Source of the DNA: an uncultured Spirochaetales bacterium
GTDB lineage: Bacteria > Spirochaetota > Spirochaetia > Sphaerochaetales > Sphaerochaetaceae
Direction: 5' to 3'
Assembly (NCBI GenBank): GCA_949293335.1
Contig: CASFDA010000013.1
Coordinates: 248,001-312,000, forward strand
Length of the DNA: 64,000 nt
Part shown: in pieces, positions 19,992 through 22,353 of the stretch
Layout: every line of letters begins with the position of its first letter
How positions within the stretch are numbered: position 1 is the first letter of the stretch
Notes under the pieces: generated by a model
Database searches by the model: none
Told to the model about the DNA's origin: nothing
What the model saw: only the letters and a program-made list of their open reading frames with translations
Program-made: the position numbers and the translations under genes

Positions 19992-20834
19992 TTACTCCTC
20001 GTCCTCATCGGAAGAATCGAGCTCTTCCTCATCCTTCTCTTCATCCTTTGGCTCATAGTTGGAGAAGTCTTCGATCTCTACATCCTTTTCCTGAATGCTC
20101 TCATCGCTCTGGATGTCCTCATCATCAAGGCTTTCGATGATCTGGATTCCAGCGCCGCTATCTGCATCGATAACTGCGTTTGCGATGATCTCAACGAAAA
20201 GGGAAATTGCCCTGATTGCATCGTCGTTACCTGGAATTGGGTAGGCGATGTCTGTTGGGTCACAGTTTGTATCTACTACAGCAATTACAGGAATTCCAAG
20301 TCTCTTTGCCTCTGCAACAGCCGTAGCTTCTTTCTTTGTATCAATAATGAAAAGGGCACCAGGAAGCTCCTTCATGTCCTTGATTCCACCAAGGTTCTTC
20401 TCGAGCTTTTCCTTCTGCTTTGTATAGAGTGCGACTTCCTTCTTTGTCATTGAATCAAAGATTCCGTCCGCCTCCATTCTCTCGATCTTCTTGAGCTTTG
20501 CAATGCTTTTCTGGATTGTTACGAAGTTTGTGAGCATGCCACCGAGCCAGCGATTTGATACATAAGGCATGTTACATCTCTTTGCCTCTTCTTCAATTGC
20601 CTGCTGGGCCTGCTTTTTTGTGCCTACGAAAAGAATCTGCTTTCCGTTCTTGACCTGTGTTCTGACAGCTTCGTATGCTTCAACGATGCATGCGCTTGTC
20701 TTCTGAAGGTCGATGATGTGAATTCCGTTTCTCTCTGTGAAAATGAAACGGGCCATTTTCGGATTCCACCTCTTTGTCTGGTGGCCGAAGTGTACACCTG
20801 CTTCAAGCAGGCTTTTCATTGTTACTACTGCCAT
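19992..20834 (-). CDS. rpsB: 30S ribosomal protein S2 with acidic tail
   Basis: The first about 225 residues are standard S2 ([64 protein letters not shown]). A further about 50 residues are almost entirely Asp/Glu/Ser, ending [17 protein letters not shown] box precedes the ATG. The upstream 250 nt contain a promoter, a folded region and a terminator-like hairpin on the same strand. Confidence 0.95.
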
Positions 20835-20951
20835 GAATGACTCCTACGCAAATGAAAACAATACTATGTTTTCGTCCTTTCGCTTTATCTCACCCATACG
20901 GGCGGAAATTTTCCTTTAAGAGTCTATAGGAATGTGGATTAATAATCAATA

Positions 20952-20980
20952 CACAAAGAGAAATCCCCAATTGATGGGGA
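20952..20980 (-). terminator. Terminator-like hairpin upstream of rpsB
   Basis: On the minus strand UCCCC-AUCAAUU-GGGGA followed by UUUCUCUUU. The stem is short and the U tract interrupted, so it may be conditional. Confidence 0.45.
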
Positions 20981-21076
20981 CTCCTCTCTCTTTCTGTCTG
21001 CGCCTCCAGACATCTCCGGAGGCGACTATGGCGGTCCCTCTCTACGGCAACCCGACTCACGTCAATTAAGCCACTG
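20952..21076 (-). ncRNA. Structured leader or small RNA ahead of rpsB, family unknown
   Basis: Read on the minus strand, a candidate transcript starts near 21076. It nests three helices: AATTGA/TCAATT (21062-21067 with 20969-20974 as plus coordinates), GGGAC/GUCCC (21034-21038 with 20977-20981), and a 7-bp CGCCTCC/GGAGGCG hairpin (21001-21024). Then comes a hairpin TCCCC/GGGGA (20964-20980) and a T-rich TTTCTCTTT. The first two helices use bases of the last hairpin, so the folds exclude each other, as in a switch. It matches no riboswitch I know. Confidence 0.5.
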
Positions 21077-21081
21077 ACTAA

Positions 21082-21110
21082 GATATAACATGAAGCATAC
21101 TGGATGTAAA
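21082..21110 (-). promoter_or_regulatory. Promoter ahead of the rpsB leader
   Basis: On the minus strand TTTACA, a 17-nt spacer and an extended -10 TGtTATATC, giving a start near 21076. The AT-rich DNA just upstream could act as an UP element. Confidence 0.5.
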
Positions 21111-21366: not shown

Positions 21367-22353
21367 ATGAGAGAAATTGAGGTAAAGGCCAGGGTCAGTT
21401 CTTTTGATTCCATGAAGGAGAAAATCGACCATGTCCTGGGTTCTGAAGGAATCCGAATTGAAAAGGATGACAGATATTTCAAGTTTCCTGCAGATGCGGT
21501 GCAGAGAGTGAGAATCAGACGGTTTAGTGATCACTTGGAGATGACGAGCAAGAAGACAGGGGAAAAGGACGGACTTGAAGATAACGAGGAATATGAGATC
21601 TCATATTCCATTTCTGACTATGAAGAGAGTGTAAAGCTACTGAAGAACCTTGGCTTGGAGGATTTCTTCACAAAGCATAAGGAAGGATATGAATGGCATA
21701 AGGACGGAATTCATTTTGAATTGTTCAACGTCAATGACATAGGATCTTTTCTTGAGCTGGAGGCAATCCTTCCTTTTGACTCAGATGAGAAAGCAAATGA
21801 GGAAGAAAGGAGTAGGATACTTTCTTACATTTCCATCTTTGGGCTAGGAAAAGAAGACATTGAGACGAGGAGTTATCGTGAGATGATACTCTCAAGAGAG
21901 GGAAGAATGACAACTTCTATAGATGCATATACAGATGGGGGGTGTTCTGGAAATCCTGGCCCCGGCGGATGGGCGTTCGTGGTTGTTTCAAATGGCGTCG
22001 AACTGACTCACTCATCCGGCGGGATGAAATATACGACAAATAATCAGATGGAACTTACCGCTGTAATCAATCTTTTGCGGTATCTGAAGGAAAACAGAAT
22101 AAATAAAGCAAGGATCCATACAGACAGTCAGTACGTGAAGAACGGAATAACGAACTGGATTTTCTCATGGAAGAAGAACGGCTGGCGTACGAGTGACGGA
22201 AAGAGTGTCAAAAATAGGGAGCTCTGGGAGACTTTGTCATCTCTTTCCTCCTCGCTTGATGTCAGTTGGGTATGGGTAAAGGGGCATGCAGGGGATGAGT
22301 TCAATGAACTCTGCGATTCCCTTTGTCGAAAGGAAATGGAGGTATTGCGATGA
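21367..22353 (+). CDS. Fusion of a CYTH phosphohydrolase/cyclase domain with ribonuclease HI
   Basis: One continuous 328-residue frame. Residues 1-180 are a CYTH domain with the EIEVK (ExExK) signature at 3-7, basic residues VRIRRF and a C-terminal FLELEAIL acidic motif; such domains act on triphosphates (class IV adenylate cyclase, thiamine or inorganic triphosphatases). Residues about 181-328 are RNase HI with all active-site motifs: YTDGGCSGNPGPGG, MELTAVINLL, HTDSQYVKNG and VKGHAGDEFNELCD. An internal ATG at 21907 behind GAGAGGGAAG could also give free RNase HI. The 3' end overlaps the chromate transporter by ATGA. Confidence 0.88.
   Translation: MREIEVKARVSSFDSMKEKIDHVLGSEGIRIEKDDRYFKFPADAVQRVRIRRFSDHLEMTSKKTGEKDGLEDNEEYEISYSISDYEESVKLLKNLGLEDFFTKHKEGYEWHKDGIHFELFNVNDIGSFLELEAILPFDSDEKANEEERSRILSYISIFGLGKEDIETRSYREMILSREGRMTTSIDAYTDGGCSGNPGPGGWAFVVVSNGVELTHSSGGMKYTTNNQMELTAVINLLRYLKENRINKARIHTDSQYVKNGITNWIFSWKKNGWRTSDGKSVKNRELWETLSSLSSSLDVSWVWVKGHAGDEFNELCDSLCRKEMEVLR

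Follow-up and report, generated by a model that had tools for sequence, protein, structure and literature searches.

What does the structured stretch upstream of rpsB encode? The window analysed here is the whole 64,000-nucleotide stretch of contig CASFDA010000013.1, from an uncultured Spirochaetales bacterium, and an earlier note had read its positions 20952 to 21110 as a switch-like leader in which competing helices attenuate the rpsB operon. Our analysis points to a different unit. The region very probably holds a separate small RNA gene, with both transcript and ends predicted from the sequence, and the best overall explanation, which we consider probable, is a stand-alone, genus-specific small RNA gene whose product binds a protein or ligand in trans.

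According to the sequence and the ORF list, the features of this RNA all lie on the minus strand, the strand that also carries rpsB (20834–19992). The following elements would delimit the transcript.

21105–21110, minus strand: −35 element TTTACA of the small RNA promoter, read from the sequence.
21082–21090, minus strand: extended −10 element TG-T-TATATC (−10 at 21087–21082), separated from the −35 element by a 17-nt spacer and read from the sequence.
20954–21077, minus strand: putative small RNA gene of about 124 nt from predicted start to terminator end, identified by covariance model, fold and genus-wide homologues.
20955–20989, minus strand: intrinsic-terminator hairpin with a T-rich 3′ side and the core GTCCCC/GGGGAT at 20981–20963, from minimum free energy (MFE) prediction.

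Both the promoter and the terminator hairpin with its T-rich tail are thus present as the earlier note described them. All 45 copies of the RNA for which upstream sequence is available have the −35 element at this position, and most also have TG-n-TAT at the matching one. The promoter sequence predicts a start near 21077/21076. Downstream, 45 of 46 copies have a terminator after hairpin P4, compared with 13 of 861 windows drawn at random from these loci (1.5%). Because the −35 element and the terminator are this widely kept, the unit is best described as a predicted transcript, some 125 nt long, whose start and stop signals are conserved. Of the features expected of a stand-alone small RNA gene, it therefore appears to have a promoter and an intrinsic terminator of its own. 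No small ORF within the RNA has a start position or length common to most copies. The sole copy lacking a recognisable terminator is that of G001 (L105); like the window copy it precedes rpsB, and read-through may happen in that genome.

The predicted transcript also appears to have a conserved structure, as expected of such a gene. The minus strand of 21078–20940 folds with an MFE of −59.7 kcal/mol, compared with −39.9 ± 4.0 for shuffled sequences (z = −4.97; none of 200 shuffles as good), in agreement with the earlier proposal of a structured region after the promoter. Read on the plus strand, the region does not stand out (z only −1.69). The MFE fold of the small RNA itself (−57.9 kcal/mol) contains a three-way junction, hairpin P4 and the terminator all together.

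21028–21074, minus strand: three-way junction P1–P3, supported by covariation, with all three helices 97–100% paired.
21074–21070/21032–21028, minus strand: P1, 5 bp, with pair types UA/CG/GC/UG/AU.
21069–21065, minus strand: strand joining P1 to P2, UUAAU in the window and UUAAA in the consensus.
21064–21061/21056–21053, minus strand: P2, 4 bp, with pair types UA/AU/UG, GC/AU/GU and CG/GC/UA/UG.
21052–21049 and 21047–21046/21038–21033, minus strand: P3, 4 bp, a bulged G and 2 bp, from the consensus structure.
21048, minus strand: the bulged G of P3, an invariant residue.
21001–21024, minus strand: hairpin P4 (21024–21015/21010–21001), in which 6 of 9 modelled pairs are changed on both sides among 43 distinct copies.

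In the consensus of 46 copies (43 distinct), the joining strand between P1 and P2 is the only linker within the junction. Among the distinct copies, 97.4% of cells are paired, 12 of 24 pairs show changes on both sides, and 112 cells are compensated, where shuffles give 28; covariation scores 0.428, compared with 0.180 for shuffled alignments and at most 0.082 for slid controls. A caveat on all these values is that a related structure was used in fitting the 46-copy alignment. An independent MAFFT alignment of the first 19 sequences shows covariation as well, and RNAalifold returns an essentially equal structure for it. The check in related genomes that the earlier note had proposed therefore does recover conserved helices, and these are P1–P4. 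Invariant residues comprise most of P3 with its bulged G, UU.A of the joining strand, the A ahead of the 3′ strand of P3, and the AG after P1. Unpaired invariant residues are few and scattered, in runs of at most 2 nt, and form no long seed. Loop L3 differs between copies in both length and sequence and keeps a purine bias. In one subclade (L085–L089, L128–L130), P4 is separated from the terminator by an additional element, TCGCAATGGATGTATTGCCTTAAGCGA or a variant of it.

The RNA is confined to a single genus as far as our searches extend. A DNA search of 100 related genomes gave 19 with a match, the genome of the window included, all in one genus. With a covariance model built on an alignment of 19 sequences, the RNA was found in 45 of 48 Candidatus Ornithospirochaeta genomes and in none of 91 other genomes of the family, which represent 21 further genera; a second, richer model gave the same result. 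The window copy (G000:C13:268998-269078) scores 81.4 bits. Two of the three absences in the genus fall in assembly gaps at contig ends: the contig of G033 stops about 100 nt beyond the start of the neighbour gene, and in G026 the match to this gene starts at codon 81, near the contig start. The third genome, G043 (a 78% complete assembly), also lacks the neighbour gene. Each genome has a single copy except G003, where two copies, including L100 (G003:C59:1-80), lie on two contigs and one of the two is nearly identical to the copy of G034; G003 is probably a mixed MAG.

A phylum-wide model search of 393 genomes gave no convincing match beyond the genus; the one match outside it, in G249 (29 bits, E 0.002 per genome over 393), was taken as chance. 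Nothing outside the genus exceeded 23.7 bits in a permissive search of 35 genomes. A scan of IMG/VR returned no match with the stricter of two patterns and 41 with the looser, none above 16.4 bits in the model. Two pattern matches in Planctomycetaceae and Verrucomicrobia contigs had no score in the model. Rfam searches found nothing relevant in the window at gathering and permissive thresholds (best local match patAB, 18 bits against a cutoff of 92) or in seven relatives at E up to 1. The searches indicate a small RNA family that is real and new, confined to one genus within their reach and without a match in Rfam 15. Among the papers searched we found no small RNA work for Ornithospirochaeta or Sphaerochaeta, and the text of a survey that includes a spirochaete genome mentions neither Sphaerochaeta nor Treponema. 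The analysis thus adds a well-supported structured RNA family for uncultured gut spirochaetes for which we found no published small RNA. The RNA resembles stand-alone intergenic bacterial small RNAs in size, promoter, terminator, single copy and intergenic position. It differs from them in being limited to one spirochaete genus with no counterpart in Rfam 15, and in that conservation is highest in a compact three-way junction and not in a single-stranded seed.

The genes around the RNA bear on how it might act.

21367–22353, plus strand: divergent gene and conserved upstream neighbour, a CYTH–RNase HI fusion (Pfam CYTH, RNase_H).
19992–20834, minus strand: rpsB (ribosomal protein S2), from the ORF list, the next gene after the RNA here and in one relative only.

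A CYTH gene is present in 43 of the 46 RNA loci, and a divergent membrane-protein gene adjoins the RNA in 42. The window encodes CYTH and RNase HI in one protein of 328 residues; most other genomes of the genus have them as separate adjacent genes. On the downstream side, the RNA is followed by argG in 36 loci, by rpsB in two (this genome and G001) and by another co-directional gene (c37) in one. A convergent gene comes directly after it in the remaining seven, of the VanZ type in five and a c-di-AMP receptor (PF06153) in two; at the receptor loci (G019 and G020; L092 and L095) this gene lies about 120 nt from the start of the RNA, with rpsB beyond it. No constant co-directional gene follows the RNA, as one would for an attenuator or riboswitch. 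This distribution across loci argues for an RNA that acts in trans.

In the mechanism that we propose, transcription would begin at 21077/21076 from the RNA's own minus-strand promoter and end at its own terminator near 20954. Because this terminator would stop transcription, the RNA would normally not be continued into rpsB, and it would not act in cis to switch the gene that follows. Its 5′ part would fold into the compact junction P1–P3, followed by hairpin P4 and the terminator. The junction, with the invariant P3, the UUAA strand, the bulged G and the AG linker, would most likely bind a protein or a small ligand, in trans. We favour such binding over antisense pairing, at about even chances, because the invariant residues gather in a compact junction, no long seed is seen, and Hfq and CsrA were not found: model searches of the window's own draft genome (estimated 99% complete) gave no match to PF17209 (Hfq) or PF02599 (CsrA). 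More tentatively, the RNA may represent a new class that arose at or near the base of the genus, its junction being the protein- or ligand-binding module of a trans-acting global regulator in bacteria without a detected Hfq or CsrA. Present in one copy throughout the genus, with a junction that hardly varies, and found in a genome where Hfq, CsrA and 6S RNA all went undetected, the RNA makes a good candidate for a global regulator specific to this lineage.

Among the alternatives, a trans-acting antisense RNA that uses the purine-rich loop of P3 or the UUAAA strand to pair with mRNAs is possible, though we think it rather unlikely. A stand-alone gene with its own terminator fits this mode, and the purine bias of the P3 loop could allow pairing with a CU-rich target. 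The variability of L3 and the shortness of the unpaired invariant runs speak against pairing, as does the lack of an Hfq match, although Hfq-independent pairing or other chaperones would be compatible with it.

A riboswitch or attenuator of argG, with the argG leader as the ancestral state and the window copy displaced by rearrangement, is improbable. The frequency of argG downstream, mostly at about 240 nt from the RNA start, is what such a leader would give, and the gathering of invariant residues at the junction and in one helix is shared with three-way-junction riboswitch aptamers. However, neither a downstream gene nor an alternative pairing of an expression platform is conserved with the RNA, whose terminator is intact in the argG loci. 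The covarying RNA also persists where no co-directional gene directly follows (L090, L091, L093, L094, L096). Beyond the terminator, the argG loci contain AT-rich sequence with ArgR-box-like ATGCAT repeats, which occur as well in another genus that has no RNA. A cis role in some conditions at the 36 same-strand argG loci retains a slight residual likelihood. The repeats, ATGCAT/AATAAATATGCA, lie upstream of argG in this genus as well as in another of the family (L106, L114, L168–L172). Five genomes that belong to another genus in the family have argG back to back with the divergent gene and no RNA between the two.

A diverged housekeeping RNA (6S or SRP) or a CsrA-titrating RNA is very unlikely. 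Genus-wide presence in one copy per genome is typical of housekeeping RNAs, and 6S RNA (RF00013) likewise requires no downstream partner, but there is no Rfam match near threshold. The only SRP RNA match (RF00169) in the window's genome is at G000:C33:71605-71702, away from the small RNA locus. RF00013 has no match in this genome, a result that is not decisive, as the model also misses many control genomes; the small RNA is, moreover, shorter than 6S RNA and forms a three-way junction where 6S RNA has its long rod and central bubble. ANGGA is a CsrA-type motif, which the invariant AGGGA in the 3′ strand of P3 fits, but no CsrA was matched in the genome.

The reading from which we started depends on helices that would exclude one another. 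When GGGAC/GUCCC or AAUUGA/UCAAUU is forced, the fold reaches −38.6 or −34.8 kcal/mol, respectively, 19–23 kcal/mol costlier than the MFE; the pair probabilities are about 1e-12 or less, and either pair is found in just one of 43 distinct copies, that of the window, so the competing helices are not a conserved property of the RNA and the proposed attenuation finds no support in them. An attenuating rpsB (S2) leader, in which alternative helices choose between termination and read-through into rpsB-tsf, is therefore hardly tenable: the RNA does lie 5′ of rpsB on the same strand in the window and in G001, but a gene other than rpsB is downstream in 44 of 46 loci, and in those genus genomes that we examined rpsB is served by a promoter region and a leader of its own, also where the RNA sits elsewhere. 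The earlier note had offered a new ribosomal-protein leader or a small RNA; covariation, promoter, terminator and the lack of an Rfam match uphold the small RNA, and the leader half is not supported. A tempting mis-reading of the locus as a new rpsB switch is thereby corrected.

rpsB itself is preceded by separate signals.

20923–20949, minus strand: candidate rpsB promoter, TTGATT (20949–20944), a 15-nt spacer and TATAGA (20928–20923), from the sequence.
20835–20910, minus strand: separate candidate rpsB (S2) leader, AATTTCC-GCCCGTATGGGT-GAGATAAAGCGAAAGGA with the Shine-Dalgarno region, identified by conservation and lying outside the small RNA.

The second promoter noted earlier is thus seen as a weaker candidate, and the upstream regions of rpsB in the genus have TTGAAC-type boxes at a similar place. 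The candidate leader is kept ahead of rpsB in 27 genus sequences, and its apical hairpin covaries (17 both-side cells compared with 4.1 in shuffles). A search of the window with Rfam gave no match for 20910–20835. S2 autoregulation has been reviewed (PMC10931766), and an rpsB motif has been described for bacterial groups that, as listed, do not include spirochaetes (PMC2704228). The small RNA resembles such a leader in being a structured RNA upstream of rpsB in the window; it differs in having its own terminator and in not being conserved at that position, and the genus rpsB leader is a different element directly 5′ of the start codon. A related element is recognisable before rpsB in most of the 20 other families of class Spirochaetia sampled, pointing to a genuine S2 leader that is distinct from the small RNA and conserved throughout the class. 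Its layout (L139–L166, L235–L254) consists of TTTCC, the covarying hairpin, GAGANANAGAGAAGGA, a second hairpin and the Shine-Dalgarno sequence.
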